Source: Sphingomonadales bacterium (GTDB taxonomy: Bacteria > Pseudomonadota > Alphaproteobacteria > Sphingomonadales > Sphingomonadaceae). From it: 64,000 nucleotides of DNA. A program made the position numbers and the translations under genes. Below are positions 38,396 through 63,348 of the stretch, piece after piece. The stretch lies in the NCBI GenBank assembly GCA_017309275.1, contig JAFKLT010000049.1:16072-80071 (forward strand), given 5' to 3'. Below the pieces are notes generated by a model that saw nothing but the letters and a program-made list of their open reading frames with translations, ran no database searches and was not told where the DNA came from. Positions within the stretch are counted from its first letter, which is position 1. Every line of letters begins with the position of its first letter.

Positions 38396-39460
38396 TCACA
38401 GGCTGAGCGCGGCGGCGAGCGACAGGAGAAAGCTCGTCACGGTGGCGACAATGATCGGCGCAAAGCTTCGCCATCCCTGATCCAGCAGCAGGTGCAATCG
38501 CGCCTTCATCGCGGTGGCGACGATCGCGAGCAGGAGAAGTGCCGACGCGGCGGTTGCGGCCGCGCTTTGTACCGGCTTCGGGATCGCGATCAGCGAATTC
38601 ACCGCCGCGATAGCCAGAAAGCCGAGGATGAACCAGGGCAGGCGCAGCGGAATGCGCGTCTTGCCCGCGCCGCCGTCGCCGCTCCGTCCTAGCCACAGCG
38701 CGACGAGCATGAGCATCGGGGCCAGCAGCGCGACGCGCGTCAGCTTGACGATCGTCGCAACCTCGCCCGCTTGCGGAGAGAAGGAAAATCCCCCGCCAAT
38801 CGCCTGCGCGACGTCATGGATCGACGCGCCGATCAGAAAGCCGGCCTGCGCATCGGTGAGGCCGAGCTGCGCCGCGAGCACGGGGTAGAGCGTCATCGCC
38901 AGCGCGCTCGCGACGGTGATGCCGACGAGGGTGAGGGTGAAGCGCGCCTGGTCGACGCGCTTGTCGCCGATCAGCGAATAGAGCGCGAGCGCGGCCGACG
39001 CGCCGCAGATGGCGGTCGCGCCGCCGGCGAGCAGCGCGGCGTGCTTTTCCTGCGCGAACAGGCGCGCGCTCGCGACGGTAATGACGATCACGGCCAGCAT
39101 GATCAGGACCAGCAGCGCGAAGGGAAGCGGCCCGAGCTCGGCGAGCTGCGCGGCGGTGATCCGCGCGCCGACCAGGACGATCCCGATGCGCAGCGCGGTC
39201 TGCGACATCAGGTCCAGCCCTGCATGGGTGCGCTTGTCCTGCGACAGGAAGGATAGAGCCAGGCCGATGAGCAGGCCCATCAGTACCAGCGGCGCGGCGT
39301 AGTGATCGGCCAGCCACGCGGCGGCTAGCGCCGCGATCGCGGTGACGAATGCCCCCGGCAGATAGTCGCGCCATTGCCGCTTGGCAGGCGGCGCAGTCTC
39401 GAGCTGCATTTCGCCGTAAAGATCGGCGGCCATCGGCCAGCTATGGTCGGACGTCTGCAT
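38396..39460 (-). CDS. YeiH/UPF0324 family putative sulfate exporter
   Basis: 354 residues with about ten membrane helices. 'GLDLMSQTALRIGIVLVGARI', 'ICGASAALALYS' and 'IGASIHDVAQAIGGGFSFS' are the family core. Some relatives export sulfite or sulfate, but the function is mostly predicted. The N-terminus lies 100 bases before the tRNA-Arg gene. Confidence 0.88.
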   Translation of the reverse strand: MQTSDHSWPMAADLYGEMQLETAPPAKRQWRDYLPGAFVTAIAALAAAWLADHYAAPLVLMGLLIGLALSFLSQDKRTHAGLDLMSQTALRIGIVLVGARITAAQLAELGPLPFALLVLIMLAVIVITVASARLFAQEKHAALLAGGATAICGASAALALYSLIGDKRVDQARFTLTLVGITVASALAMTLYPVLAAQLGLTDAQAGFLIGASIHDVAQAIGGGFSFSPQAGEVATIVKLTRVALLAPMLMLVALWLGRSGDGGAGKTRIPLRLPWFILGFLAIAAVNSLIAIPKPVQSAAATAASALLLLAIVATAMKARLHLLLDQGWRSFAPIIVATVTSFLLSLAAALSL

Positions 39461-39560
39461 GGCTCTTCCCCCGCTCGAGCGTCGCTTCGCATATCCGCGC
39501 CTGATGGTCGATAGGCCATTGCTGGCGAGCCGCGCTCTTGCTAGAGGCCCCGCTCTACCG

Positions 39561-39637
<77 letters not shown>

Positions 39638-40116
39638 TTTCCCACAATGCCGGGCACTGAGCCCTCCTCGGCTTCCGAGACGCGTGTGGGAGCGGTGAGA
39701 GCAAACTGCCTTCGCTCCAATGCAGGTGGCCCTTAGCGCAGCTTCTGTAAGCCGCACCTTGCATATCTGCTTCGGTGCAGGGCCGGCCACACCATTACGT
39801 CTCAAAGACCTGGCGATGGGACGCTTTCGGCGACCCTGTTAGAACGGGCTTGAAGCCGCCGTCTTGGGCGACCGGCGCGACCATTCCCTTTATATCTCTG
39901 TGCGGTGCCTTGGTCCGGGCGTGTCGCTTGACGGGCGGGCCGTATTCCGAAGAATATTGCCCGGGCTTTGCGGAGCGCGCGGCCTTCGGCCTCAATCGCA
40001 ATCCGGATGCGCGGAGCGCGGCGTGAAAAATAAAATCATATTATATATCGATCCATCTTGATAATAAATCATATGATCGATATCGCTTCGTGCGACGATA
40101 TTAGGAGAGGTGGCAA
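39638..40116. other. Intergenic region between tRNA-Arg and the catabolic locus
   Basis: About 480 bases without a supportable gene. Short open frames on both strands (39775-40026 and the opposite 39795-40001) lack recognisable homology or good ribosome-binding sites. The last ~90 bases (40030-40110) are strongly AT-rich and contain the promoter of the dioxygenase gene. Confidence 0.6.
40063..40085. promoter_or_regulatory. Putative GntR operator A (dioxygenase-hydrolase promoter)
   Basis: The core ATGATCGATAT (40073-40083) sits beside the palindrome ATCATATGAT (40068-40077), about 32-50 bases before the dioxygenase ATG. It shares the nine bases ATATGATCG with the site before the gntR gene. 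A second AATCATATTATATAT stretch lies at 40035-40049. Confidence 0.45.
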
Positions 40117-40965
40117 ATGTCAGTGGAGGCTCTGGAGCAGCGTTTCGCCGAATTTCGTGAGCGCGGATATACGATTTTCGAGGGTGCTTACGACGCCGGG
40201 CAGATGCAGGCGTGGAAGGACCGCTATGACGATATGGTCCGGCGTAATACGCCGCCCGGCGCCGCCGAGCCGCGGCTGCGCGTCACCAGCGCGCTGGAGC
40301 AGGAGCCCGGACTGATGCTGCCCGCGGTCAACAATCAGGACGTCCTGGATTTTGCCGAGCGCGTGATGGGGCCTTTCGTCCAGCTCGACAATCTGACCTT
40401 CATGGCTTTCCCGTCGGAGCCCAAGGAGCAGGCGGAAGGCAAGGTCAGCTTCTGGCATCGCGACCGATGGGGCTGGATGCCCGAGGGCCCTCAATATATC
40501 CGGCCTATGGCGTGCAATGCGATCTGCTATCTGCAGGATCTTACCGACGAATATGGTCCGCTGCGTATCATCGAAGGATCGCATCGGCGAGCGGTGACGA
40601 TCGAATCGGACGCGCATCGCACCCAGCCGCATCCGGAGGAAACGGTGCTGAACGTGAAGGCGGGCGACGTGGTCTTCACGCATTGTTCGCTGCTGCACAC
40701 CGGCACGCCGAACACGTCGGGCAAGCCGCGCTATTTCTTCAGCACTTACTATAATCGCGTGGGCTTGCCGACGCGTGACAATCACAACGGGCCGGCGGTC
40801 CAGCGGATCGTCGAAGCCGCGCGGACGCGCAACGACCGCCGCCTGATGCGCCTTTTCGGCGTCGACGACCTGATCGAGGCCCGCGCCAACTGCCTGTTCC
40901 TCCGCCCCGACGAGGAAATGTGGAGCCGGTGGATCGCGGAGGACCGCGCCGCGCTCGAACAGTGA
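40117..40965 (+). CDS. Phytanoyl-CoA dioxygenase (PhyH) family Fe(II)/2-oxoglutarate oxygenase
   Basis: 282 residues with GGAGAGG before the ATG. The iron site is the HxD of 'FWHRDRWGWMP' (about residue 112) with a distal His in 'HCSLLHTGTPNTSGKPRYFF', and the Arg of that segment can bind 2-oxoglutarate. 'LQDLTDEYGPLRIIEGSH' is the PhyH family beta-turn. It hydroxylates an organic substrate using O2 and 2-oxoglutarate; the substrate is unknown. It leads the catabolic locus and overlaps the hydrolase gene start (GTGA). Confidence 0.9.
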   Translation: MSVEALEQRFAEFRERGYTIFEGAYDAGQMQAWKDRYDDMVRRNTPPGAAEPRLRVTSALEQEPGLMLPAVNNQDVLDFAERVMGPFVQLDNLTFMAFPSEPKEQAEGKVSFWHRDRWGWMPEGPQYIRPMACNAICYLQDLTDEYGPLRIIEGSHRRAVTIESDAHRTQPHPEETVLNVKAGDVVFTHCSLLHTGTPNTSGKPRYFFSTYYNRVGLPTRDNHNGPAVQRIVEAARTRNDRRLMRLFGVDDLIEARANCLFLRPDEEMWSRWIAEDRAALEQ

Positions 40966-41735
40966 CGACGGGTCTGCGAACCGCGCACCTGGGCGAGGTG
41001 CCGCTGCTATGGGCGGAGCCGGCGGGCGCCGTCGCACGTCCGCTCGTGCTTTGGCTGCATGCTTTCAGCTGGACCAAGGAAGAGGTCGCTCGCCAGCTTT
41101 CCGACCTGGCGGCGCGGGGCTTTGTCGCAGTGAGCTGGGACCTTCCGCAGCATGGCGAGCGGGGCAGCGAGACGCCCGAAGAAATCAGGCTGCGGGTCCG
41201 CAGCGATCTGCGGCGCCATTTCTGGCCCATTCTTGCCCAGGCGGTCGAGGAGGTTCCGGCGATCGTCGACTGGGCGGTCGCGCATTTCGATGTGCGGCCG
41301 AACGTGGCGATCGGCGGCGTGTCGATGGGCGGCGACATTGCGGTGGCCGCCGCGGGCATCGATCGTCGCATCGATCGTGTCGCGGCGGTCCTTGCCACGC
41401 CTGACTGGTTGCGCCCGGGTTCGATCGAGCCGCAGGGCACGGCCGACGAGGTGCAATGGGGCTTGTATCGCCGGTTCGATCCGCTGACCAACGCCGGGCA
41501 TTATAGCCATTGCCCCGAGATGCTGTTCGTATGCGGAGGCGAAGACCGACAGGTCCCTCCCGAGGGAGCCGGAGCCTTTGCCGATCTGCTGGGCGATATG
41601 TACGCGAAGCGTCACCGGCGGCTGGCAATCGCACGCGAAGGCGGGATTGCGCACCGGTTCACGCCCTGGATGTGGGCGGAGGCCATGGCGTGGTTCGAGG
41701 CCGGTCTGGCCGCCGACCTCGGGCCGTCCCGCTAG
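40962..41735 (+). CDS. Alpha/beta hydrolase, probable carboxylesterase
   Basis: 257 residues from a GTG that overlaps the dioxygenase stop by four bases; the frame further upstream is antisense-like filler. Core motifs are 'VLWLHAFSWTKEEVARQL', 'AVSWDLPQHGERG', the nucleophile elbow 'GGVSMGGDIAVAA' and 'GGEDRQVPPEGA' for the acid residue. No lid domain or signal peptide, so it acts in the cytoplasm. Coupled translation with the dioxygenase suggests that both act on one substrate. Confidence 0.85.
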   Translation: MTTGLRTAHLGEVPLLWAEPAGAVARPLVLWLHAFSWTKEEVARQLSDLAARGFVAVSWDLPQHGERGSETPEEIRLRVRSDLRRHFWPILAQAVEEVPAIVDWAVAHFDVRPNVAIGGVSMGGDIAVAAAGIDRRIDRVAAVLATPDWLRPGSIEPQGTADEVQWGLYRRFDPLTNAGHYSHCPEMLFVCGGEDRQVPPEGAGAFADLLGDMYAKRHRRLAIAREGGIAHRFTPWMWAEAMAWFEAGLAADLGPSR

Positions 41736-41796
41736 CCCAATATGGCACGACCGATCGGGGGAATGGCGGAGCGGCTTGACGTCAAAAATAATTAGG

Positions 41797-41818
41797 CATA
41801 TTAAATGATCTGTATATA
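41797..41818. promoter_or_regulatory. Putative GntR operator B (receptor promoter)
   Basis: Core ATGATCTGTATAT (41805-41817) in an AT-rich island 103 bases before the TonB-dependent receptor start. It matches the other three sites in the ATGAT core followed by TATA/ATAT. Confidence 0.4.
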
Positions 41819-41920
41819 GAGAAACAATATGCTATTATAGTGCGCCGTGGCGGGGATTGCGCGGCCTTAAGATAACGATAATCGGTCGGAATTGCTGGCC
41901 GGCCAAAATGGGAGGAAGGC

Positions 41921-44572
41921 ATGTTGCGTAAAGCGCTACTAATATCCGCATCTGCGATGGCGATAACGTCGCTGACGGGCGTTGCGCACGCTCAGGAGCG
42001 GGCGAGTGAAGCGTCGGGGCAGGGGACCGACGATCAGGAAATCATCGTCACCGGCGTCTTCAGTGCGACCTCGATCGAACGCGCGCCGATTTCGATTACC
42101 GCCGTCACCGAAGATGTGCTGAAGCGCCAGGCGCCGATCAGCTCTGCGGACGCGCTGAAGAGCGTTCCCGGCGTGTTCGTCAACTCCTCGCTGGGCGAAA
42201 TTCGCAACATCGTCTTTTCCCGCGGCGTCTCGGCACGCTCGCTCGAGGCTGCCGGCGGCTATTTCTATGTCTCGCTGCAGGAGGACGGCCTGCCTGTCGA
42301 ACCGGTGACGGCAACGAACTTCGGCCCCGACTATTTCAGCCGCCTCGACCTGATGAACAACCGCATCGAGGCGCTGCGCGGCGGGACCGCGGTGGTCACC
42401 GGCGCGAACGCTCCGGGCGGTATCTTCAACTATATCTCGAAGACCGGGAAATCGGCGCCGGGCACGCAGTTCCAGTTCAAGGGCGGGCTTGAGGGCGACG
42501 GCAAATCGCCGCTCTATCGCTTCGACGCCTATACGGGCGGCCAAATCGGCGACAGCGACGTCTATTATGCGCTCGGCGGTTTCTATCGCGCCAGCGATGG
42601 GGCTCGCTATCCGGGCTACAAGCTCAACAAGGGTGGCCAGATTCGCGGCAATCTGTTGTGGGATTATGGTGCAGGGTCGCTCACGATCCGCGGGAAATAT
42701 CTGAACGACCATAACGGCTGGTTCGAGACGCTGCCCGCGCGCAACTTCAAGGATCCGAAGATCCTGGCGCCTTACACCAATCTGTCCTCGGTGCTGCCCC
42801 CGGCATCGCCGCACAGCTATGCAGAATTCGGCACTGGCAAGATCCGCAACTGGGACGGATCGGAACTCGTCAAGAGCACCGCCGTGGCCTTTGACGTGAA
42901 CTGGCGTCATGACCTGACCGACAATATCCAGATCAGCAACAACTTCCGCTTTTCTCGGAACAAGGCGCACTGGAACACGGTGGCGGTCAACTTTGCGACG
43001 CCGCTGACCGATGCCGATGGTGGTATCCGCACGATCCAGAGCACCAACGGGATCGACGGCACCTATACCTATCGCCTTCCCGACGGAACGGTCGCCGCCG
43101 TGGTGTCGCAGGTGGGCGCGACGCGCACGCTGGTCGTGAACAACCTGCCCAACCAGAATATCCTCACCGGCGGCATCATGGCGGGTCTGGCCTATCAGCC
43201 GGATTTCCGGTCGCAGACGTTCCAGGATCAGCTGACGATATCGGGAACCTTCGGGCGCCATCATCTCGCGCTTGGGGCCTATTTCGACAAGTCCACCTTT
43301 CACCAGCGCTTCTCGGGCGCCGGTGGCGGCATCATGACCCTCGAGCCGCGGCCGGTGCTCTTGAGCACGACGCTGACGCGCCCCGACGGGTCGGTCTATC
43401 TCGTCACCGATTCGTCGGGGTGGGCGGGCATCGGCCAGGGCCTCGCCATTCGCGAGAGCGGGACCAAGATGACCGACATCTCGATCTATGGCGGTGATAC
43501 CTGGGAGGCGACCGACAAGCTCACCATCGATATCGGCGCCCGCTACGAAAGCCTGCGGTACGACTCCTTCACCTATCTGCCCGTGGCTTTCACCGGCAAC
43601 AAGCTGACCACCGGCGGGCGCGATGGCAATGTGCTGACGCTCTACGACAATGCAACCACGGCGCGCGGTGCACGGCTGCCCTTCAAGCGCAAATATGATT
43701 ATTTCGCTTTCTCGGGTTCGGCCGCCTATCAACTCACCGATACGTTCCAGGCCTATGTCCGATACACCAGCGGCAAAAAGGCGCCCGATTTCGGCATTCT
43801 GTCGGGGATCACGACGCCTGCGGCGATCGCGACGATCTTCCCCTCAGCTGAGAAGATCCAGCAGATCGAGATGGGACTGAAGTATCGCGACAATGGCATG
43901 TTCATTCAGGCTTTTCCGTTCTGGAGCAAGAATTCGAACATCGCGGACAATCAGACCTTCACCTACAAGGCTGGGACGCCGAACGCGGGCACCAACTATT
44001 CGCCGCCGCCGGTCTTCGGCCAGGTCGAAACCTATGGCATCGAGATTTCGGGCGACTTCGATCTGACCAGCCAGCTGAATCTGCATGCCGACCTGACGCT
44101 GCAGGATCCGAAGTCGAAGGGGTTCAGCACCTATACCCAGGGGCCCAAAGGCGACGGGACCGACGATATCGTCAGCACCGTCCCGCCGGGAACGGCGGAC
44201 AATAATCCAAAGATCATCGCCCGCGCGACGGCGACATATCGCCCGATCGAGGCGCTGTCGCTCTTCGCCACCTATTCCTATCTCGGCAAGCGCGCCGCGA
44301 ACCGCCGCGACGCCTGGTATCTGCCCGGCTTCAGCACGGTCGACGTCGGTATTGCGTGGGATGTGAACAGCAATTTCAGCGTCCAGGGTAATGTCACCAA
44401 CCTGTTCAACACCGTCGGCATCATGGGCTGGGCGAAGGGCGGCAGCCTGCTGACCGCGCTCGACCGACAGACGCTGACACCGGCGCAGGTGGCGGCCGAT
44501 CCCAACCAGCTGTTCTCGGTCCTGCCGAACCAGCCGCGGGCATTCTATCTTACGCTCTCGCTGAAGCTCTGA
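41921..44572 (+). CDS. TonB-dependent receptor of the catabolic locus
   Basis: 883 residues with GGGAGGAAGG before the ATG. Signal peptide ends at 'GVAHAQ'; TonB-box region 'DDQEIIVTGVFSATSIERAP'; plug with 'LMNNRIEALRGGTAVVTGAN' and 'APGGIFNYISKTGKSAPG'. The barrel ends in '..AFYLTLSLKL'. The plug resembles the siderophore/oligosaccharide-type receptors, not the FyuA group at 27490. It is placed between enzyme genes and an MFS permease, so it probably imports the substrate of this locus. Confidence 0.95.
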   Translation: MLRKALLISASAMAITSLTGVAHAQERASEASGQGTDDQEIIVTGVFSATSIERAPISITAVTEDVLKRQAPISSADALKSVPGVFVNSSLGEIRNIVFSRGVSARSLEAAGGYFYVSLQEDGLPVEPVTATNFGPDYFSRLDLMNNRIEALRGGTAVVTGANAPGGIFNYISKTGKSAPGTQFQFKGGLEGDGKSPLYRFDAYTGGQIGDSDVYYALGGFYRASDGARYPGYKLNKGGQIRGNLLWDYGAGSLTIRGKYLNDHNGWFETLPARNFKDPKILAPYTNLSSVLPPASPHSYAEFGTGKIRNWDGSELVKSTAVAFDVNWRHDLTDNIQISNNFRFSRNKAHWNTVAVNFATPLTDADGGIRTIQSTNGIDGTYTYRLPDGTVAAVVSQVGATRTLVVNNLPNQNILTGGIMAGLAYQPDFRSQTFQDQLTISGTFGRHHLALGAYFDKSTFHQRFSGAGGGIMTLEPRPVLLSTTLTRPDGSVYLVTDSSGWAGIGQGLAIRESGTKMTDISIYGGDTWEATDKLTIDIGARYESLRYDSFTYLPVAFTGNKLTTGGRDGNVLTLYDNATTARGARLPFKRKYDYFAFSGSAAYQLTDTFQAYVRYTSGKKAPDFGILSGITTPAAIATIFPSAEKIQQIEMGLKYRDNGMFIQAFPFWSKNSNIADNQTFTYKAGTPNAGTNYSPPPVFGQVETYGIEISGDFDLTSQLNLHADLTLQDPKSKGFSTYTQGPKGDGTDDIVSTVPPGTADNNPKIIARATATYRPIEALSLFATYSYLGKRAANRRDAWYLPGFSTVDVGIAWDVNSNFSVQGNVTNLFNTVGIMGWAKGGSLLTALDRQTLTPAQVAADPNQLFSVLPNQPRAFYLTLSLKL

Positions 44573-44701
44573 GCGAATGCGCATTGGTCCGCGGTCCGCG
44601 GTCGGCCGAAAGCTTGTTGCGAGCGCACGGGCGATGGTTAGACGGGGCCGCGGATCATCTGCGCATGGCGGTTTGACGTGTTGGCGGGAAAGGGCGGGCA
44701 G

Positions 44702-46036
44702 ATGAATGACGTGAGCGACCCGTCGCCGAGAACGAGAGGCCTGCTCTCGGGCTGGCCGCTCGTTGCCGTCCTGATGCTTTTCTATTTTCTGTCGTTCGTC
44801 GATCGTGCGCTGATCTCGCTGATGGTCGAACCGATCCAGCGCGATCTCAACTTCACCGATGTGGAGATGGGGCTGCTTCTCGGGCCGGCGTTCGGCATTT
44901 TCTATGCCGCCGCGGGCATTCCCATCGGGCGGCTGATGGATCGCTATTCCAAGCGCTGGCTGTGCATGGCCGTCGTAGCCTTTTGGGGCCTTTCGACTGC
45001 GGTGTCGGGCATGGCGACCAATTTCTCGATCTTCTTCCTCAGCCGGCTCGGCCTCGGGGCAGGGGAGGCGGGACTGTCGCCCGCCGCCTATTCGCTGATG
45101 GCCGAACAGGTGCCCCGCCAGCGGCTCGCCACCGCCTATTCCTTTTACACCGTCGGCGCCTTTGCCGGCGGCGGCCTGGCGATCGTGGGCGGCGGGTGGC
45201 TGGTCCACAAGCTCGCCAGCGAAGGCATGATCGCGGTGCCGTTGCTGGGGCAATTCTACCCGTGGCAGCTTACCTTCCTGATCGTCGGCACGCTGACGAT
45301 CCTGGCCGCGCCACTGGCGCTGCTGTTGCGGGAGAATGTGCATCCGGCGGCATCCGAAGCGGCGGCTACCGGCGGGCCGGCGCGGAAATCGGGGCTGTTT
45401 GCGTTGATCCGCACCGACCCCGCTTTTTACCTTGGCTATCCTTTCGCCTTCGGTTCGGTGAATGTCATCGTCACGGCGTTCCACGTCTGGACGCCGACCT
45501 TCATGTCGCGAACCTATGGGTGGCCGATCGAAAAGGTCGGCCTCGCCTATGGCACGACGCAGGGGGGCGCCGGCGTGATCGGGCTGCTCGCGATGGGCTG
45601 GCTCGTCGAGCGTCTCTATAATCGCGGGATGCTCGACGCGCATGCGAAGGTCCCGGCGATCGCGCTATGCTTTTCGATCCCGGCGATGATCGGCGGCATA
45701 TTGTCGGGCAGTCCGACGGCTTTCCTGCTCGCGTCGCTTCTCTTCTGGGGCGCGACGTACACCTATGCGGGCTATGCGCCGGCGGCGCTGCAACTCGGGA
45801 CGCCGGCCTCGCTGCGGGCCAGCGTCGGCGCGGTCTATGTCACCTTCCTGTCGGTGATGGGTCTGTTCATCGGGCCCACGATGGTAAGCTGGTTCACCGA
45901 AGGTGTTCTGCACGACAAGTCGAAGATCGGCCTGTCGCTCGTCTTCGTGATGGTCATCTGGACGCCAATCGCGATCGCTTCGCTGCTTTTCGTCGCCAGG
46001 CGGCTGCGCACCAGACACGCCCGCGATATGCTGTGA
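44702..46036 (+). CDS. MFS transporter, spinster-type
   Basis: 444 residues from ATG 44702 (an in-frame TTG at 44678 is less likely), with AGGGCGGGCAG upstream. Twelve predicted helices; 'LFYFLSFVDRALISLMVEPI', 'GLLLGPAFGIFYAAAGIPIG' and 'RLGLGAGEAGLSPAAYSLMA' are those of the Spns-like group common beside TonB-dependent receptors in sphingomonads. It would carry the substrate from the periplasm to the cytoplasm. Confidence 0.9.
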   Translation: MNDVSDPSPRTRGLLSGWPLVAVLMLFYFLSFVDRALISLMVEPIQRDLNFTDVEMGLLLGPAFGIFYAAAGIPIGRLMDRYSKRWLCMAVVAFWGLSTAVSGMATNFSIFFLSRLGLGAGEAGLSPAAYSLMAEQVPRQRLATAYSFYTVGAFAGGGLAIVGGGWLVHKLASEGMIAVPLLGQFYPWQLTFLIVGTLTILAAPLALLLRENVHPAASEAAATGGPARKSGLFALIRTDPAFYLGYPFAFGSVNVIVTAFHVWTPTFMSRTYGWPIEKVGLAYGTTQGGAGVIGLLAMGWLVERLYNRGMLDAHAKVPAIALCFSIPAMIGGILSGSPTAFLLASLLFWGATYTYAGYAPAALQLGTPASLRASVGAVYVTFLSVMGLFIGPTMVSWFTEGVLHDKSKIGLSLVFVMVIWTPIAIASLLFVARRLRTRHARDML

Positions 46037-46047
46037 CGGCGAGAGCG

Positions 46048-46782
46048 TCAGCGCTTCGATTGTCCGCGCGCTTCGCTTCCCTTCGCTTTCGACACGCGGG
46101 CCACGGTGCCCTTCGAATAGTCGATCAGTTTGCGCATCGCAACGCGGGCTTCGGCCCCGTTACGATCGACGATCGCATCGAGGATCGCCTTGTGCATCGC
46201 GAGCGAATGTTCTGTGCCGTCGGGGTTGTCGGCGCCGATGCGAAAGCTGATGACCAGCGCCGATTCAACGACTCGCCCCAACGACGCGAATAGGTCGTTG
46301 CCCGACGCCTCGATGATCGCGCGGTGAAAAGCCAGGTCGGATTCGATGCTGTCATGGGTGCGTCCTGCCGCGGCCATCGCGTCAAATGCCTCGCCCATGC
46401 GGCGGAAGTCCTGAAGCTTGGCGCGCGACGCGGCAAGAAAGGCGGCGGTCGGTTCGACCATGTGGCGCAGCTCGTACAATTGCTCGAGCACCGCGTCGCG
46501 GTCCTCCGAACGCAACCGCCATTCGAGGATGTCCGGGTCGAGGAAATTCCAGTTCTCGCGCGGGAGTACGAATGTGCCCGCCTTGGGCCGCGCATCGACG
46601 AGCCCCTTGGCCGCCAGCACGCGCAATGCTTCGCGCAACACGGTGCGACTGACACCTAGCCGAGCGCAACATTCCTCTTGTCCCGGGAGCGTCGCCCCAG
46701 GGGCAAATTCGCCGGACAGGATGGCTTGACCCAGATCCTGGATCACGCGGCCGTGCAGTCCTTTGCTTTCAACGGCTTTCAT
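46048..46782 (-). CDS. GntR family regulator, FadR/FCD subfamily
   Basis: 244 residues. Winged-helix N-terminus (about 8-75) with 'ILSGEFAPGATLPGQEECCARLGVSRTVLREAL', best seen in pieces 'LGVSRTVLREALRVLAAKG'. 'ENWNFLDPDILEWRLRSED' links to the FCD domain, a wording common in regulators of sugar-acid pathways such as DgoR. Metal/ligand residues are in 'SDLAFHRAIIEASGN' and 'AMHKAILDAIVD'. It probably senses a sugar-acid-like intermediate and represses this locus. An AT-rich site before its own gene suggests autoregulation. Confidence 0.92.
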   Translation of the reverse strand: MKAVESKGLHGRVIQDLGQAILSGEFAPGATLPGQEECCARLGVSRTVLREALRVLAAKGLVDARPKAGTFVLPRENWNFLDPDILEWRLRSEDRDAVLEQLYELRHMVEPTAAFLAASRAKLQDFRRMGEAFDAMAAAGRTHDSIESDLAFHRAIIEASGNDLFASLGRVVESALVISFRIGADNPDGTEHSLAMHKAILDAIVDRNGAEARVAMRKLIDYSKGTVARVSKAKGSEARGQSKR

Positions 46783-46827
46783 TGGCTTGTGGTTCGCCCA
46801 TTAACATATGAATCGCGTGATTTATGG

Positions 46828-46850
46828 CACATAAATATGATCGAATATAG
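46828..46850. promoter_or_regulatory. Putative GntR operator C (gntR promoter)
   Basis: Core ATGATCGAATAT (46837-46848), sharing ATATGATCG with operator A, 46-68 bases before the gntR start. It lies between gntR and the lldD stop. Confidence 0.45.
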
Positions 46851-46879
46851 AGCGCCGCGGCAGCGGCTCGATCGGAGTG

Positions 46880-48025
46880 TCACCGGACCAGCGCCCGGCG
46901 ATCGAGGTCGGCTATGCGATTGGCGCCGGTAAGGCTGAGCGCGACGCGCAGCTCGGCTTCGAACAGCGACAGCATGTGGCGCACCGCTGCCTCGCCCCCG
47001 GCGCCAAGCGCATAGGCCCAGGCGCGGCCCAACAGCACGCAATCGGCGCCAAGGCAAAGCAGCCGCGCGACGTCGAGCCCGGACCGAACCCCGCCGTCGG
47101 CGAGAATTCGCAATTCTCCCCGGACCGCATCGGCGATCGCGGGCAGCGTTTCCGCGGTCGAAGGAACGCCGTCCAATTGCCGCCCGCCATGGTTCGAAAC
47201 CACGATTCCGTCGGCACCCACCGCGATCGCGGTGCGGGCGTCCTCCGGGTCGAAAATCCCTTTGATCACCAGAGGGCCGGTCCACTCGCTGAGGATATGC
47301 TCCAGATCGCGCCAAGTGACGCGCGGGTCGAAATTGCCCCGCATCCAGCCCAGAAAATCGTCGAGGCCGCTCTTCGTGCCGAGCAGCGGCGCGACATTGC
47401 CAAGGCTGTGCGGCCGGCCGCGTAGTCCGACATCGACGGCCCAGCGGGGATGCTGCATCGCCTGAAATCCCCGCTGGATCGCCCCCTTCAGGCCCGGTGC
47501 GCCGGCGAGGCCGGATCGGTAATCGCGGTAGCGCGCGCCGGGCACGGGCATGTCGACGGTGAACACAAGGACCGAACAACCCTGTTCGCGTGCCTGCGCC
47601 AGCAGGTCGCTGACAAAGACGCGGTCGCGCATCATATAGAGCTGGAACCAGAAGGGGGCGCGTGCCGCGTCGGCCACCTCTGCCAGCGAGCAGGCGGATA
47701 CGGTCGAGAGGCAAAAGGGAATGCGCGCATTTTCAGCCGCCGTAACGGCTTGTCGTTCGCCGCGGCGGGCAAGTATGCCGGCCAGTCCGATCGGGCCCAG
47801 CGCGATCGGCATCGACTGGCGTTGTCCGAAAATCTCGATGCCCAGATCGATGTCGGAAACATCGCGCAACACCCGCTGACGAAGCGCCACGCGCTGCAGG
47901 TCGGCGCGATTCCGACGGAGCGTCACCTCGTCATACGATCCGCCGTCGACATACTCGAATAGGAACTTCGGCAGCCGCCGCCGCGCCAGTTCGCGATAGT
48001 CGGATATCGATGCTGCAAGCTTCAT
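46880..48025 (-). CDS. lldD: L-lactate dehydrogenase (FMN-dependent, quinone-linked)
   Basis: 381 residues, with GGAGG 12 bases before the ATG. Near-colinear with E. coli LldD: 'FLFEYVDGGSYDEVTLRRN', 'IALGPIGLAGILARRGE', 'LVFTVDMPVPGARYRD', the catalytic His in 'GIVVSNHGGRQLDGVPST', and 'ILADGGVRSGLDVARLL' for FMN phosphate. It oxidises L-lactate to pyruvate at the inner membrane. In this locus it could consume L-lactate released by the FAH-family hydrolase encoded 0.9 kb away. Divergent from the SDR gene over operator D. Confidence 0.95.
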   Translation of the reverse strand: MKLAASISDYRELARRRLPKFLFEYVDGGSYDEVTLRRNRADLQRVALRQRVLRDVSDIDLGIEIFGQRQSMPIALGPIGLAGILARRGERQAVTAAENARIPFCLSTVSACSLAEVADAARAPFWFQLYMMRDRVFVSDLLAQAREQGCSVLVFTVDMPVPGARYRDYRSGLAGAPGLKGAIQRGFQAMQHPRWAVDVGLRGRPHSLGNVAPLLGTKSGLDDFLGWMRGNFDPRVTWRDLEHILSEWTGPLVIKGIFDPEDARTAIAVGADGIVVSNHGGRQLDGVPSTAETLPAIADAVRGELRILADGGVRSGLDVARLLCLGADCVLLGRAWAYALGAGGEAAVRHMLSLFEAELRVALSLTGANRIADLDRRALVR

Positions 48026-48070
48026 GCCCTGAAAACGCCTCCTAAACCTTCAATATTGTCTTGACACTAG

Positions 48071-48090
48071 GTATATAATCATACTTATTA
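48071..48090. promoter_or_regulatory. Putative GntR operator D (lldD / SDR divergent promoter)
   Basis: TATATAATCAT (48072-48082), the reverse complement of ATGATTATATA, lies in the 101-base divergent region between lldD and the SDR gene. Preceded by TTGACA at 48061, which could be a -35 element for the SDR side with TATAAT (48074-48079) too close, so the exact promoter is unclear. Confidence 0.4.
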
Positions 48091-48126
48091 CTCCCATCAA
48101 AGGGCAATTAATAGAATGAGAATTGA

Positions 48127-48927
48127 ATGGAGAGCGAGCCTGCCACCCCTGTCGGCGGAGCCGATTATGCCGGGGCGAACCATTATGATTTCGCGGGGCG
48201 CGTAGCTGTCGTCACGGGTGGCGCGCAGGGCATCGGCTTTGGTGTTGCGCAGCGGATCGTCGCCGGGGGCGGCGCAGTCGCACTCTGGGACTGGGACGGC
48301 AAAATGCTCGACGAGGCGGGGGCGCGGTTCGGCGATGGGGCACGGGTGCTTCGTCAGCGCGTTGACGTCAGCGATCTCGGCGCGGTCGAAGCCGCGGCGC
48401 GGGAGGTGGTGGATCATTTCGGGCGGATCGACATATTGATCAACAATGCCGCGCTGGTCGGGCCGAATGTTCCGACCTGGGAATATCCGCCCGATGCCTT
48501 TCGCGACGTCGTCAATGTCGGCCTGACGGGCGCCTTCTATTGCTGCCGCGCCGTGGTGCCGTACATGATGCAAAGCGGCTATGGCCGGATCGTCAACGTC
48601 AGTTCGATCGCGGGCAAGGAAGGCAATCCCAACGCCGTCGCCTATAGCTCGGCGAAGGCCGGTCTGCTGGCGCTGACCAAATCGCTGGGCAAGGAATTGG
48701 CCGGGTACGACATCGCGGTCAATGCCGTGACGCCCGCATTCGCGAAAACCGCGCTCGCCATGACCCAGTCGCCGCAGCACATCGAATATATTCTCTCGAA
48801 AATTCCGCGCGGCCGCATGCTCGACGTCGCGGAGGCGACCTCGATGATCTGCTGGCTGGCGACCGCGGAGAATTCTTTCACGACAGCGGCGGTCTTCGAT
48901 CTTTCCGGCGGCCGGGCGACCTATTGA
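48127..48927 (+). CDS. Short-chain dehydrogenase, similar to 2-keto-3-deoxy-L-fuconate/rhamnonate 4-dehydrogenase
   Basis: 266 residues. NAD-binding 'AVVTGGAQGIGFGVAQRI' near 27-44, 'DILINNAALVGP', the catalytic Ser in 'VNVSSIAGKEGNPNAV', and Tyr/Lys in 'AYSSAKAGLL'. Its C-terminal 'AVFDLSGGRATY' and overall wording are like LRA5-type sugar-acid dehydrogenases. It would oxidise C4 of a 2-keto-3-deoxy acid to a 2,4-diketo acid for the hydrolase encoded next. The match is from recognition, not alignment. Confidence 0.85.
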   Translation: MESEPATPVGGADYAGANHYDFAGRVAVVTGGAQGIGFGVAQRIVAGGGAVALWDWDGKMLDEAGARFGDGARVLRQRVDVSDLGAVEAAAREVVDHFGRIDILINNAALVGPNVPTWEYPPDAFRDVVNVGLTGAFYCCRAVVPYMMQSGYGRIVNVSSIAGKEGNPNAVAYSSAKAGLLALTKSLGKELAGYDIAVNAVTPAFAKTALAMTQSPQHIEYILSKIPRGRMLDVAEATSMICWLATAENSFTTAAVFDLSGGRATY

Positions 48928-48970
48928 GCCCGCGATCCGTCAACAGGCGACATAATCAGAAGGGATAGAC

Positions 48971-49810
48971 ATGCGTATTGTAAGGTTCGGTCCGGAAGGA
49001 GCGGAGCGTTATGGCCTGCTGGACGATAGCGGCACTATTCGGGACGCTTCGTCGGCGATAGGGGAGGATGCTCAGGATTTCGACCGGGTGGTCGCTGCGC
49101 TTGGCCGCTTGAAGCCCGCCGATCTGCCCGCTGCGCCCGAAGGCGTTCGGCTCGGATGCCCGGTCGCGCGCGTCGGCAAGGTCGTCTGCGTCGGCCTCAA
49201 CTATTCGGACCATGCTGCCGAAACCAACATGGCGGTCCCGGTAGAGCCCGTTCTGTTCATGAAGGCGAATACGTCGGTTTGCGGCCCGAACGATGACATC
49301 CGCATTCCGCCCGATGCCGAAAAGGTCGACTGGGAGGTCGAACTGGGTGTCGTCATTGGCCGGCGCGCGACGCGCGTGAGCGAGGCTGACGCGATGGATT
49401 ACGTCGCCGGCCTTGCCGTCGTGCACGATGTTTCGGAACGCGGCTTCCAGCTCGAGGGAACGGGGCAATGGCTGAAGGGCAAGAGCCTCGACACCTTCTG
49501 CCCCGTCGGGCCGTGGCTCGTGACCCGCGACGAAGCGGGCGATCCTCAGAATCTGGCGATGTACCTCGACGTGAACGGTCAGCGCATGCAGGACGGGTCG
49601 ACCAGGACGATGGTCTTTGGGGTGGCCTTTCTCGTCTCCTACATCAGTCGTTTCATGACGCTGGAGCCCGGTGACATCATTTCCACCGGCACGCCGCCGG
49701 GCGTCGGCATGGGGAAGCAGCCGCCGGTCTATCTGAAGCCGGGCGACAAGGTCGCTCTCGGTATCGAGGGGCTCGGCACCCAGCAGCAGACGGTGCGTCT
49801 GACGGATTAG
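48971..49810 (+). CDS. Fumarylacetoacetate hydrolase family protein, probable 2,4-diketo-3-deoxy-acid hydrolase
   Basis: 279 residues with AAGGGA before the ATG. FAH domain from about 70: 'KVVCVGLNYSDHAAETNM', 'PVLFMKANTSVCGPND', 'DWEVELGVVIGRRATRV' with the metal Glu pair, and 'ISTGTPPGVGMGKQPPVYL'. 'NDVSER'-like 'VHDVSERGFQLEGTGQW' and 'MVFGVAFLVSYISRFMTLEP' are those of the LRA6/2,4-diketo-3-deoxy-L-fuconate hydrolase group, which cleaves its substrate to pyruvate and L-lactate. The SDR upstream and lldD nearby fit that chemistry. Confidence 0.87.
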   Translation: MRIVRFGPEGAERYGLLDDSGTIRDASSAIGEDAQDFDRVVAALGRLKPADLPAAPEGVRLGCPVARVGKVVCVGLNYSDHAAETNMAVPVEPVLFMKANTSVCGPNDDIRIPPDAEKVDWEVELGVVIGRRATRVSEADAMDYVAGLAVVHDVSERGFQLEGTGQWLKGKSLDTFCPVGPWLVTRDEAGDPQNLAMYLDVNGQRMQDGSTRTMVFGVAFLVSYISRFMTLEPGDIISTGTPPGVGMGKQPPVYLKPGDKVALGIEGLGTQQQTVRLTD

Positions 49811-49887
49811 AGCGGACAGGCGTGCGCGACGGACTGTCGCGACAGGCTGTGGCCCCAGTGATTTCCTGGTTTCGATAAGGAGCGAAT

Positions 49888-50844
49888 ATGAAGATTGTCG
49901 TGACGGACGCGACCTTTCCGTCCCTGGCGCACGAGCGCGCGGTCGCTGAAGAATTCGGCGCTGATTTCGTTGAGGGGAAATGCCGGAGTGCCGACGATGT
50001 GACGGCGGCGGCCGACGGGACCGACGTGCTGATCGTCCAGTTCGCCCAGGTGACGGCGGCCGCGATTGCCCGGATGGCGCCGGGCTCGCTGATCGTTCGC
50101 TATGGCATCGGACTGGACAATATCGATCTTGCCGCCGCTCGCGAATGCGGAGTCAAGGTCGCCTATGTGCCCGATTATGCGACTGGTGAAGTCGCCGACC
50201 ATACTGCCGCGTTGATCCTGACCATGCTGCGCTGCGTTGTGCCGTTGGACCGATCGGTGCGCGAGGGCAAATGGGATGCGGTCGGCGTGGCCGGCGCACT
50301 CAGGGCCTTTCCTGAAAGCGTCGTCGGTTTCGTCGGCTTCGGTCGTATCGGGCAGGAGGTGCTTGCCCGGCTTCAGCCTTTCGGTTTCAGGGGCATCGTC
50401 GCCGATCCCTATGCCGATCGGGCTGCACTCGACCGGCTGGGTGTCGAGGCGGTGGATCTGGACGCGATGTTCGACCGGGCCGACGTCATCACATTGCATT
50501 GTCCACTGACCCCCGAGACGCGGCATGTCGTGAATGCCGAGCGGCTGGCGCGAAAGCCGGATCGCGCGGCGCTGGTCAACACCGCGCGGGGGGGGCTGGT
50601 CGATCCCGACGCGCTGGTCGATGCCTTGTCGTCCGGTCGGCTCCGTGCCGCCGCGCTGGATGTGTTCGAGACCGAGCCGCTGCCGGCCGACTCTTCGCTG
50701 CGCGATTGCCCGAACCTGATCCTGACCCCGCATGCCGCCTGGTATTCGACCAGCGCGATCGAACGCCTGCAATCGCTGGCGGCCGACGAGGTCCGGCGCC
50801 ACCTGACGGGGCAACCGATGCGGCGGCCCGCCACGGGCGACTGA
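49888..50844 (+). CDS. D-isomer 2-hydroxyacid dehydrogenase, CtBP-like
   Basis: 318 residues with AAGGAG before the ATG. NAD motif 'VVGFVGFGRIGQEVLARL' near 145, catalytic Arg in 'ALVNTARGGLVDPDAL', Glu in 'DVFETEPLPAD' and His in 'LTPHAAWYSTSAIERL', the last being the C-terminal-binding-protein-like form. It would interconvert a 2-keto acid and a D-2-hydroxy acid. It ends the plus-strand run of the catabolic locus; its exact substrate is unknown. Confidence 0.9.
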   Translation: MKIVVTDATFPSLAHERAVAEEFGADFVEGKCRSADDVTAAADGTDVLIVQFAQVTAAAIARMAPGSLIVRYGIGLDNIDLAAARECGVKVAYVPDYATGEVADHTAALILTMLRCVVPLDRSVREGKWDAVGVAGALRAFPESVVGFVGFGRIGQEVLARLQPFGFRGIVADPYADRAALDRLGVEAVDLDAMFDRADVITLHCPLTPETRHVVNAERLARKPDRAALVNTARGGLVDPDALVDALSSGRLRAAALDVFETEPLPADSSLRDCPNLILTPHAAWYSTSAIERLQSLAADEVRRHLTGQPMRRPATGD

Positions 50845-50845
50845 C

Positions 50846-50861
50846 GACCGGGTGCCCGGTC
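50846..50861. terminator. Hairpin between converging dehydrogenase and cobU genes
   Basis: Stem GACCGG/CCGGTC (50846-50851 with 50856-50861) with loop GTGC in the 24-base gap between two converging genes. T-tracts are weak, so confidence is limited. Confidence 0.4.
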
Positions 50862-50868
50862 TTCGACG

Positions 50869-51393
50869 TCAGGGCATTCGCGGTTTGAGCGGCAGCGAAA
50901 GGCCGGCGGCGACGAACTGAACCTCGCCCGCCGCTGCCGCGACCAACTGGTTGGCGCGCCCCGCTTCGTCGCGAAAGCGGCGGGAAAGGGCATTGTCCGG
51001 TACGATCCCCAGCCCGACCTCGTTCGCCACCAGGATCAGATGACCCTGAAAGCTCGGGACGATCGCGCAGAGCTCCGCCGTCGCCGCGCCGATGTCGGCG
51101 TCCGCGAGCAGCAGGTTAGAAATCCACAGGGTCAGGCAGTCGACCAGAACGATCGCGTCGGGCCGATCGAGCGCTTCGATCGCCGCGGCGAGCGCGTGCG
51201 GAGCCTCGACCGTCTGCCACCGCCGGTCGCGGTCGGCCTGATGCCGCGCGACGCGGTCGCGCATTTCGGCGTCATGCGCCTCAGCGGTCGCCAGGAACAC
51301 ATGCCGGCCGTCCAACGCCTCGGCCCGGCCCTGCGCATATCGGCTTTTCCCGGACCGTGCGCCGCCCAGAACGAACAGGCTGCGGTTCGTCAT
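50869..51393 (-). CDS. cobU: Adenosylcobinamide kinase / adenosylcobinamide-phosphate guanylyltransferase
   Basis: 174 residues from ATG 51393. P-loop '[18 protein letters not shown]', '[16 protein letters not shown]', and '[24 protein letters not shown]' in pieces are the CobU/CobP signature. It phosphorylates adenosylcobinamide and attaches GMP, the step before nucleotide-loop joining by CobS. Last gene of the riboswitch-led operon; its start overlaps the cobQ stop by four bases. Confidence 0.95.
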
Positions 51394-61678: not shown

Positions 61679-62283
61679 AACTCGATCCCCGGCTGCGCTT
61701 TCACGCCCGATCGAAAGGGATGTTTGACCTGGACCATCTCGGTCACCAGGTCGGCGGCTTCGATCAGCGCGTCCGGGGCGTTGCGGCCCGTGACGACGAC
61801 ATGCTTCATCTGGCTGCGATCCATCAGGCCCGCGACCACCTCGTCGACGGGCAGATATTCGTACCGCAAGACGATGTTGAGCTCGTCGGCGACGACCATC
61901 GCGATCTCCGGATCGGCGATCATTCGTTTGACTTCGTCCCACCCGGCGCGGGCCCAGGCGATGTCGCGCGCGCGATCTTGGGTGTCCCAGGTGAAGCCTT
62001 CGCCCATGACGCGATGTTCGACCTGCCCCGGAAAGGCGGAATAGACTGCCTTTTCTCCCGTCGCCCAGCCGCCTTTGATGAACTGGACGATGCCGACCTT
62101 CATTCCGTGTCCCAAGGCGCGGCAGACCATGCCGAAGGCAGCGGTCGACTTGCCCTTGCCCTTACCGGTGTGGACGATCAGCAGGCCTTTTTCCTGGGTC
62201 TTGTCGGCCATGATCTTGGCCTTTGCGACTTGCCGCTTGCGCGCTTTTTCATTGTGGCGCTCGTTGATCTCGTCTTCGGTCAT
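61675..62283 (-). CDS. cobO: Cob(I)yrinic acid a,c-diamide adenosyltransferase
   Basis: 202 residues from ATG 62283 with GGAGG upstream. 'LIVHTGKGKGKSTAAFGMV' P-loop at about 37-55, 'VQFIKGGWATGEKAVY', 'VVADELNIVLRYEYLP' and 'HVVVTGRNAPDALIEAAD' are CobO/BtuR. It adds the upper adenosyl ligand. First gene after the second riboswitch. Confidence 0.96.
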   Translation of the reverse strand: MTEDEINERHNEKARKRQVAKAKIMADKTQEKGLLIVHTGKGKGKSTAAFGMVCRALGHGMKVGIVQFIKGGWATGEKAVYSAFPGQVEHRVMGEGFTWDTQDRARDIAWARAGWDEVKRMIADPEIAMVVADELNIVLRYEYLPVDEVVAGLMDRSQMKHVVVTGRNAPDALIEAADLVTEMVQVKHPFRSGVKAQPGIEF

Positions 62284-62413
62284 CTCATCCTCCGGGCACG
62301 ACCAAGCTTTGGCGCGGCAGCCGGAATGGCGCCGCACCGGTTCTCATTCGTCGCCCGAACGGTTGATCCGTGCCCGGCCATTCCCTGGACCCAGGCATTG
62401 AGCGACCCGCGCC

Positions 62414-62608
62414 GGCAGGTCTCCTGGCTCGCGGGTCCTCGCTTGATCACGCCTTCCCGGTTTGACCCAGTGGCTGTCCCGGATGATGCCGGGACGGTGT
62501 GTCGCGCTCGCCGCTTACAGTTGCAGGGACAGCCCTGGATTTGGCCAGCCGCAGATCGGCCGCCTCACCACGTTCCCCATTAAGCCCCTTCGGGCACCGG
62601 TGCGGTTG
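62414..62608 (-). promoter_or_regulatory. Cobalamin riboswitch before cobO
   Basis: Minus-strand blocks: ACCGGTGCCCG, GGGGAACGTGGTGAG, the B12-box region CTGCAACTGTAAGCGGCGAG (within 62509-62530), AGCCACTG, GGGAAGGC and the 3' GAGCCAGGAGACCTGCC. More complete than the btuB copy. It ends 130 bases before the cobO ATG. Confidence 0.94.
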
Positions 62609-62635
62609 TTTGAAGGCATCGGCCTTCGCATTCGG

Positions 62636-62663
62636 CGAATAGAGCCATCGCCGAATTTGACAA
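62636..62663 (-). promoter_or_regulatory. Predicted promoter of riboswitch-cobO-cobB transcript
   Basis: Minus-strand TTGTCA (62658-62663) and TATTCG (62636-62641) with a 16-base spacer, placed about 30 bases before the first conserved base of the riboswitch. Confidence 0.45.
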
Positions 62664-62684
62664 TAGCTCCGGCGGTGGCAGCCT

Positions 62685-63131
62685 TCAGAAGAATTCGTCC
62701 AGCAGCAAGTGGAACTGCAGCTTGCGCTGATCTGCATCCGCTATGCCATATTGGTGGAGAAATCTTTCCTGCGGAGCATCACCGAACTCATCCAGACAGT
62801 TCCAAATTATGGCAAGGTCCTGATACCGATCAGTAATCCCGACCCGGCCCACTTCGATGCATCCGACGATACTGCCCGCACGAACGAAAACATTGTCGAG
62901 AGAGAAATCGCCGTGCGTGACGACAGGATCGGGAACCAAGGGCAGCAGGTCTTACAATGCTTCCCATACCTGTTCGGCTGTCCAGCCTTGGCGTTCCTCG
63001 TCAAAATCGTCCGTTTTGATCCAGCCCGTGCTAACGCGCGCCAGCTCCAGCTCCAGCCGGTAGGGATGATCGCTGTTGAAGGGGTAGCTATTTACGGGGA
63101 CCGCGTGCAAGCGGCGGAGAAATGCAGCTAA
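62685..63131 (-). pseudogene. Aminoglycoside 3'-phosphotransferase remnant (truncated, internal stop)
   Basis: On the minus strand the frame reads '..LAAFLRRLHAVPVNSYPFNSDHPYRL' in pieces, then 'GWTAEQVWEAL', a TAA, and 'DLLPLVPDPVVTHGDFSLDN', '..DRYQDLAIIWNCL..' and 'LQFHLLLDEFF'. This is the C-terminal ~150 residues of an APH(3')-I/II type enzyme, including the catalytic loop 'THGDFSLDN' and 'VGRVGITDRYQDLA'. The N-terminal ~110 residues, with the nucleotide-binding half, are missing. No activity is expected. Confidence 0.85.
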
Positions 63132-63348
63132 TTCGAATTTTCATTTGCACGCGGCCTTCGGGCCGTCAATGAAACCAATATTCCGGCTTTCCTCCCATTT
63201 TAGAACGCCTTGATGGCCAATCCTTTACACTGCGGGTCCAATGACGGGAATCGGGACCTCCGAATTGACGGATTCATTGTCAAACCGCGTCGGGGGAATC
63301 AGAAGGGGGCCGGTCGCGCCACCGATTCTAACTGACTGGACAGATTGA

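Follow-up and report, generated by a model that had tools for sequence, protein, structure and literature searches.

How can a bacterium make use of the last enzymes of a sugar pathway when the genes that usually open this pathway are missing beside them? This question is raised by a nine-gene locus at positions 40117-50844 of a 64,000-nucleotide stretch of DNA (hereafter the window) from a Sphingomonadales bacterium (assembly GCA_017309275.1, contig JAFKLT010000049.1, positions 16,072 to 80,071). The locus encodes counterparts of LRA5 and LRA6, two enzymes of the non-phosphorylative L-rhamnose pathway as presented in the available extracts of PMC11199699, together with a dioxygenase, a hydrolase and a D-2-hydroxyacid dehydrogenase in place of the usual entry enzymes. 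Our answer, held tentatively and at just under an even chance, is that it is a self-contained catabolic regulon with an L-rhamnose-type, non-phosphorylative ending and an entry that works without a dehydratase. Gene families, conservation of the unit, a motif common to both promoters and the exchange of entry genes can be read from the DNA, and it is from these that we infer the reactions, every one of them.

All nine genes are open and intact, two lying on the minus strand and seven on the plus strand, and the content and families given by a first-pass annotation of the same DNA were borne out by Pfam and NCBIfam matches:

40117..40965, plus strand: PhyH-family Fe(II)/2-oxoglutarate dioxygenase, 282 aa (Pfam PhyH, 78 bits against a gathering threshold of 22)
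40962..41735, plus strand: alpha/beta hydrolase, proposed lactonase or esterase (Pfam alpha/beta hydrolase, 30.8 bits; possible GTG start)
41921..44572, plus strand: TonB-dependent outer-membrane receptor (family match; 84% and 92% identity in two sister loci)
44702..46036, plus strand: MFS permease (Pfam MFS_1; best NCBIfam match the D-galactonate transporter subfamily TIGR00893, at 102.3 bits far under the cut-off of 395)
46048..46782, minus strand: GntR-family regulator with FCD domain (Pfam GntR and FCD; 90% and 97% identity in the sister loci)
46880..48025, minus strand: LldD, FMN-dependent L-lactate dehydrogenase (FMN_dh 413.6 bits; passes NF008398 with 591.2 against 376, misses the stricter NF033901 with 533.9 against 550)
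48127..48927, plus strand: short-chain dehydrogenase/reductase (SDR) on the side of L-2-keto-3-deoxyrhamnonate 4-dehydrogenase, LRA5, by identity and tree (adh_short 175.9 bits)
48971..49810, plus strand: FAH-family 2,4-diketo-3-deoxy acid hydrolase, LRA6/FucG-like (FAA_hydrolase 254.1 bits)
49888..50844, plus strand: CtBP-like D-2-hydroxyacid dehydrogenase (D2HDH), proposed C2 oxidation (2-Hacid_dh_C 194.2 bits)

The possible GTG start of the hydrolase at 40962 overlaps the TGA stop of the dioxygenase at 40963-40965 (the mechanically called open reading frame begins at 40920), which suggests that dioxygenase and hydrolase are translationally coupled.

A search of other sphingomonads, proposed at first pass as a check on whether the gene set stays together, recovered all nine genes, in unchanged order, in Sphingomonas colocasiae JCM 31229 (protein identity 66-90%) and in a Sphingopyxis metagenome-assembled genome (MAG; 67-97%), which makes the block more than a chance neighbourhood. 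The locus DNA is 78-81% identical between the window and these two sister loci, and the window flanks have no blastn (E ≤ 1e-5) or tblastx (E ≤ 1e-15) match in the sister flanks, a comparison limited in effect to the left side for the Sphingopyxis MAG, whose right flank is 177 bases. The dioxygenase is rare: of 397 sampled family genomes, three gave a match at E ≤ 1e-10, namely its own, S. colocasiae and a third (G072) with a 47% relative in a different context, and at E ≤ 1e-25 in its own genome only among 385 genomes of the class. From the differing flanks and this rarity we argue that the locus may have been transferred. A tRNA-Arg (CCG) lies at 39561-39637, about 480 bases upstream of the dioxygenase gene. 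A mobile island at this tRNA was considered and rejected, no second copy of the tRNA 3' end being present in the window at up to three mismatches; the sole direct repeat of at least 18 bases (seed 12) within 39400-51000 falls inside the TonB receptor gene. Plasmid carriage was also rejected, since in 20 of 21 records, among the matches listed, no near DNA match covers more than 6% of the locus; on plasmids the dioxygenase reaches at most 29% identity (6 records) and the hydrolase has no match at E ≤ 1e-5. The G+C content of the locus is 61-65% against 65-70% on either side, and is similarly low elsewhere in the window, for example at 62001-64000.

As to the ending of the proposed route, the SDR appears from its sequence to side with the L-2-keto-3-deoxyrhamnonate (L-KDR) dehydrogenases and not with FucF. 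It is 52-59% identical to the SDRs of plasmid clusters with an annotated rhmD (L100, L108 and L111, from K. robustum, B. cenocepacia and C. rhizosphaerae), 59% identical to those of Cereibacter (L109) and Paraburkholderia (L110) and 45-53% identical to those of 32 LRA5-type loci of its own family, but just 27-28% identical to the SDRs of two fucose-type clusters (L098 and L101, so labelled because the former has an annotated L-fuconate dehydratase and the latter the same gene order, its dehydratase not being in range; both also carry a gene annotated as L-rhamnose mutarotase). Its best solved matches are 9jve (278 bits), 6d9y (272) and 9kq1 (270). According to the extracts of PMC11199699, 6D9Y, a putative L-KDR dehydrogenase (L-KDRDH), shares 51 and 54% identity with two L-KDR dehydrogenases, from Herbaspirillum huttiense and a Sphingomonas, and has K209 and R247 as putative ligands. 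When these residues are mapped onto the 6D9Y sequence with an 8-residue offset, a step of our own, the window SDR keeps both, the Lys in LSK and the Arg in GGR (GGRATY). All five plasmid relatives retain this Arg, which both fucose-type SDRs lack; four of the five retain the Lys, L109 having an Arg at that position like the fucose-type SDRs. In the SDR tree (44 rows), where several branches are very long, the SDRs of the three PhyH loci join that of L110 (99/97), beside the SDRs of the rhmD clusters, which are not one clade. The L110 locus (Paraburkholderia plasmid AP028202.1) has its SDR and FAH genes beside annotated leuC, leuD and leuB, an ABC transporter and a SMP-30 family protein; its annotation shows no rhmD within 9 kb.

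The best solved match of the FAH protein is the L-2,4-diketo-3-deoxyrhamnonate hydrolase 8gsr (308 bits), followed by 1gtt (224) and the acylpyruvase FAHD1 (148-150). Against the FAH proteins of the plasmid clusters compared, of rhamnose, fucose or other type, its identity is 57-63%, and against those of the family loci 52-59%; the SDR and FAH proteins of the three PhyH loci each form a clade of their own in their trees (42 rows for FAH; L109 and L191, with no long FAH match, were left out). The first-pass annotation had named two results that would count against it, FAH and SDR proteins grouping with unrelated families such as acylpyruvases and a gene set not conserved together; neither was found, and its overall interpretation is supported.

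Its suggestion that LldD oxidises the lactate released by this ending draws support from comparison, LldD being present in 14 of the 32 LRA5-type loci. One of these 32, L182 (genome G070, contig 156), is an SDR-FAH cluster with a GntR/FCD regulator, an ILVD/EDD dehydratase, a membrane D-lactate dehydrogenase family gene, GH2 and MFS genes and no gene for L-rhamnonate dehydratase (RhmD), and looks like a D-series 6-deoxy-sugar version of the cluster. Since it combines an ILVD/EDD dehydratase with a D-lactate dehydrogenase in place of LldD, the choice of lactate enzyme seems to depend on whether the sugar is of the D or the L series. That rhamnose catabolism can extend to the oxidation of lactate is already known: according to the available extracts of PMC3870299, some Actinomycetales and Rhodobacterales with the RhaEW route have lldD or lldEFG in their RhaR regulons. 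That SDR, FAH and LldD act as stated is, in our judgement, likely.

The beginning of the route is where the locus departs from its relatives. The SDR occurs at E ≤ 1e-60 in 33 of 394 sampled family genomes, and the comparison set comprises all 32 places (31 genomes) outside the own genome and S. colocasiae, some flanks of which end at contig ends; presence was scored by tblastn at E ≤ 1e-12 over at least half of the query. FAH is found in 31 of these loci, RhmD in 30, the lactonase in 29, a rhamnose 1-dehydrogenase of at least 70% identity in 27, RhaT in 16 and rhaM, for the mutarotase, in 7, whereas dioxygenase, hydrolase and D2HDH are each found in none. The reverse pattern is seen by tblastn in the two sister loci and by gene content in the window, which is thus not a complete LRA cluster, since RhmD, lactonase and rhamnose 1-dehydrogenase are absent among its nine genes and in both sister loci. 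Apart from L182, the only one of the 32 without RhmD is L191, on a contig of 10,237 bases. A complete version is annotated on the Caulobacter rhizosphaerae plasmid (L111): rhamnosidase, TonB receptor, lldD, rhmD, FAH, SDR and rhaT, with an amidohydrolase at the position of the lactonase.

Nor was a close RhmD found elsewhere in the three host genomes. A Caulobacter RhmD query reaches at best 29% identity in the own genome and 35% in S. colocasiae, and finds nothing at E ≤ 1e-10 in the Sphingopyxis MAG, the completeness of which is not known; a Caulobacter lactonase query matches nothing in either the own genome or the MAG, its single hit being one of 37% in S. colocasiae; and rhaM was not found in the own genome. 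The ten enolase-superfamily matches of the own genome are six DgcA-like genes, two enolases, one galactonate dehydratase-like and one talarate/galactarate dehydratase-like gene, and relatives of ILVD/EDD number two in the own genome (31-33%) and two in the MAG (30-33%). The six DgcA-like N-acetyl-D-Glu racemase genes or fragments lie on contigs 2, 35, 39, 68 and 104, one of them above the model cut-off. Sequence comparison therefore does not support an orthologue of L-rhamnonate dehydratase in the three hosts, and a dehydratase of another kind elsewhere in them is possible. The absence of the usual entry enzymes, noted at first pass, is confirmed at the locus; genome-wide, the searches covered dehydratase, lactonase and, in the own genome, the mutarotase, the sugar 1-dehydrogenase having been searched at the locus only. 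With RhmD and lactonase swapped for dioxygenase, hydrolase and D2HDH across loci, and no close RhmD in the hosts, the entry module looks exchanged. D2HDH is probably part of the new module, being as locus-specific as the dioxygenase: at E ≤ 1e-70 a search of 298 sampled family genomes found it in two, the own one and S. colocasiae.

A promoter motif is also shared by two sites at the locus:

40032..40046, plus strand: copy 1, upstream of the dioxygenase gene (1 mismatch to ATAATMATAYTWWWT)
48075..48089, plus strand: copy 2, between LldD and SDR (0 mismatches to ATAATMATAYTWWWT)

In each of the three loci the pattern ATAATMATAYTWWWT stands at both places with 0-1 mismatch. With up to one mismatch allowed, it has three hits in the 5.1 Mb of the own genome (G000) and three in the 6.6 Mb of S. 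colocasiae (G253), two of which are in each case these promoters, and at two mismatches it has one further hit in the window, at 22387. What is informative here is its rarity elsewhere and its retention at both sites in three genomes. The region before the TonB receptor gene (41736-41920) is AT-rich, and in each of the three loci arms resembling GGCATATT...AATATG can be seen there; as a strict dyad, GGCATATT...AATATGCC, the pattern was rejected, since it has no match in the window. Simple promoter and terminator scans gave counts at about shuffle level (4 against 2.1 and 7 against 8.2).

The dioxygenase, as a member of the PhyH family, has invariant H114, D116, H194 and R205 in 38 aligned rows, window included, which we read as the HxD...H triad and the 2-oxoglutarate-binding Arg; H189 is invariant too, and taking H194 as the distal ligand in its stead is likewise our reading. 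The Ser, Asp and His regions of the hydrolase are invariant in four aligned rows, again with the window. A scan of species genomes gave 72 PhyH loci, 54 of them from Poribacteria with 47-54% identity, and a second PhyH match is present in 46 loci, 45 of which are poribacterial. One such locus annotated in detail (L037) has GFO/IDH/MocA proteins, further PhyH and a sulfatase, whose protein cluster is found in 45 loci. By tblastn, on which these counts are based, the hydrolase is near PhyH in four of the 72: L025, L026, L027 (an Anaerolineae bin; PhyH 64%, hydrolase 50% identity) and L040 (Paenibacillus mendelii; 55% and 49%), and FAH and LldD are confined to L025 and L026. The idea that the hydrolase marks one PhyH clade was rejected: the PhyH tree places L040, a carrier, with other Paenibacillaceae that lack it (98/85), so that the carriers do not form a single clade. 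The neighbours of the pair in L040 resemble the IolE, IolO and IolM models, all below cut-off, which suggests a cyclitol or keto-sugar route. For the chemistry, PhyH-family enzymes that include one from a Sphingomonas and one from a Poribacteria member demethylate 2'-O-methyl nucleosides, according to the extracts of PMC12709175, and such removal of an O-methyl group from ribose may serve, by analogy, as a precedent for oxidation beside an ether oxygen.

These elements can be assembled into the following route. The TonB receptor and MFS permease would import a sugar-like, probably acidic compound, which the dioxygenase would oxidise beside the oxygen of an ether or glycoside (or, in the case of a 4-hydroxy acid, at C2); the hydrolase would open the resulting lactone or ester to a 3-deoxy-aldonic acid, a 2,4-dihydroxy acid; D2HDH would oxidise C2 to give a 2-keto-3-deoxy acid, and the LRA5-type SDR would oxidise C4 to give a 2,4-diketo acid, which FAH would cut into pyruvate and L-lactate, the latter being converted to pyruvate by LldD. 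If the substrate already lacks the C3 hydroxyl, no dehydratase is needed and the nine genes form a closed route. That all nine serve one pathway seems very probable to us; that D2HDH replaces the need for a dehydratase is possible, and falls short of an even chance.

Glycosides of ascarylose (3,6-dideoxy-L-arabino-hexose), such as nematode ascarosides or certain bacterial O-antigens, are a long-shot candidate for the substrate. In that version the dioxygenase would oxidise the glycoside at C1 to an aldonolactone and free aglycone and the hydrolase would open the lactone; C3 being deoxy already, D2HDH would yield L-KDR directly, and SDR, FAH and LldD would finish. The configuration of ascarylonate, which we take to be D at C2, rhamno at C4 and L at C5, would match D2HDH, the LRA5-type SDR and LldD. 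The C4 specificity of an LRA5-type enzyme (the C4 choice of L-KDRDH being opposite to that of L-KDFDH, the L-fucose counterpart, in the extracts of PMC11199699), a D-2-hydroxyacid dehydrogenase and LldD thus together point to 3,6-dideoxy-L-arabino-hexonate, on the stereochemistry of these sugars and on family names, the D-specificity of D2HDH being taken from its name.

Several findings weigh against an entry without dehydratase, or soften the evidence for it. Outside the locus the own genome encodes two candidate sugar-acid dehydratases (galactonate-like, 226.5 bits against 311; talarate-like, 127.5 against 500) and S. colocasiae has a 44% ILVD/EDD relative (three at 31-44%), while the absence of rhaM says little because only 7 of the 32 comparison loci have it. 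The nearest plasmid relatives of D2HDH (50-51%; Chelativorans and Shinella, L119 and L120) sit with an enolase-superfamily gene and a rhamnose mutarotase, and a 40% relative in Caballeronia is also near an enolase-superfamily gene, so the job of D2HDH need not be to bypass a dehydratase. In Chelativorans a FAH gene of 59% identity directly follows the D2HDH relative (in Shinella no FAH is in range), and in Paracoccus kondratievae a 45.5% relative has a FAH-family gene on one side and an SDR of 33% on the other, the annotated genes in range including none of the enolase superfamily; D2HDH therefore keeps sugar-acid company with and without a dehydratase. In both L119 and L120 an acetoacetate-decarboxylase-family gene directly precedes the CtBP-like dehydrogenase. 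The FAH protein scores 388.8 bits against the cut-off of 500 of NF053535, the equivalog model for LRA6 (2,4-didehydro-3-deoxy-L-rhamnonate hydrolase), although 8gsr is its best solved match, and the FAH tree does not split rhamnose from fucose clusters and was rejected as a discriminator of the two. The dioxygenase reaction is a guess, the nearest solved relative being a leucine hydroxylase at E 2.7e-8. In the family-genome searches for PhyH, D2HDH and SDR, no more than 6 or 7 first-look candidates were scored in each genome. As for the motif, hits in the promoters are expected because the pattern was written from those very sites, a reversed control pattern has two hits in G000 and none in G253, and the whole-genome scan covered these two genomes, the Sphingopyxis MAG being scanned at the locus only.

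Three other explanations were weighed. The possible dehydratases of the own genome would suit an oxidative O-demethylation of O-methyl-L-rhamnose or its acid, in which the dioxygenase would take off the methyl group as formaldehyde, the lactone would be opened by the hydrolase, and L-KDR would come from a dehydratase encoded elsewhere; the PhyH-family 2'-O-methyl nucleoside demethylases in the extracts of PMC12709175 and the weak, below-cut-off match of the MFS permease to a D-galactonate transporter model fit as well. However, the hosts yield nothing close to RhmD and (a weak point) the own genome yields no rhaM, no gene of known formaldehyde handling is among the nine and D2HDH would be left without a role, so that we regard this as unlikely. 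D2HDH does have a role in a route that starts from a non-sugar compound, a gamma-lactone or a 4-hydroxy acid such as 4,5-dihydroxyhexanoate, the lactone being opened by the hydrolase, C2 hydroxylated by the dioxygenase, C2 and C4 oxidised by D2HDH and SDR and the product cleaved by FAH. This scheme employs all catabolic genes, and alpha-hydroxylation, as in the phytanoyl-CoA reaction, is the namesake reaction of the PhyH family; the sister-clade SDR and FAH pair of L110, with its leuCDB-like genes and no rhmD within 9 kb, is consistent with it. We nonetheless rate it as distinctly unlikely, the annotated PhyH relatives (three loci in detail) being found among carbohydrate-type genes (GFO/IDH/MocA, AP_endonuc_2, sulfatase, ABC transporter).

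Lastly, dioxygenase and hydrolase, perhaps with TonB receptor and permease, and SDR, FAH, LldD and D2HDH could be two neighbouring but separate functions, as the Anaerolineae and P. mendelii loci, with dioxygenase and hydrolase and without FAH, LldD or a close SDR, would allow. Gene order kept in three genomes, the motif common to both promoters and the presence of the dioxygenase in both genomes with D2HDH among the 298 make this decidedly improbable, and we return to one regulon with a dehydratase-free entry as our tentative reading.

Set against known systems, the locus resembles the LRA rhamnose clusters of its own family and of C. rhizosphaerae in its SDR, FAH, often LldD and, for L111, TonB receptor, with the same last-step chemistry proposed, and differs in having a PhyH dioxygenase, an alpha/beta hydrolase and a CtBP-like D2HDH instead of L-rhamnonate dehydratase, lactonase and rhamnose 1-dehydrogenase. 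To the non-phosphorylative L-fucose pathway (FucF/FucG, in the extracts of PMC11199699) its FAH is equally close (62-63%), but its SDR is distant and no fuconate dehydratase is in the locus. With the PHYHD1/FJS 2'-O-methyl nucleoside demethylases (extracts of PMC12709175) it shares the PhyH family and the HxD...H triad, although no chain named PHYHD1 is among the PDB matches of its dioxygenase at E ≤ 0.01. The Chelativorans and Shinella clusters share, besides D2HDH, a FadR/GntR regulator, and differ by their annotated enolase-superfamily, acetoacetate decarboxylase and mutarotase genes, with no PhyH annotated. Among the matches listed, no such gene set is named in the titles and abstract openings of open-licence papers on PhyH with sugar-acid genes or on ascarosides. 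The LRA5/LRA6-type last steps are thus known; what would be new is their entry by dioxygenase, hydrolase and D2HDH in place of the usual enzymes.

In conclusion, this bacterium probably eats an unusual sugar-like compound. If our reading is true, the LRA last steps would be a module that is fed by different entry enzymes depending on the C3 hydroxyl of the substrate, and the handedness of lactate and 2-hydroxyacid dehydrogenases could help to deduce the stereochemistry of a substrate from the gene cluster. Should 3,6-dideoxyhexose glycosides prove to be the substrate, the locus would offer a candidate route by which bacteria break such compounds down.

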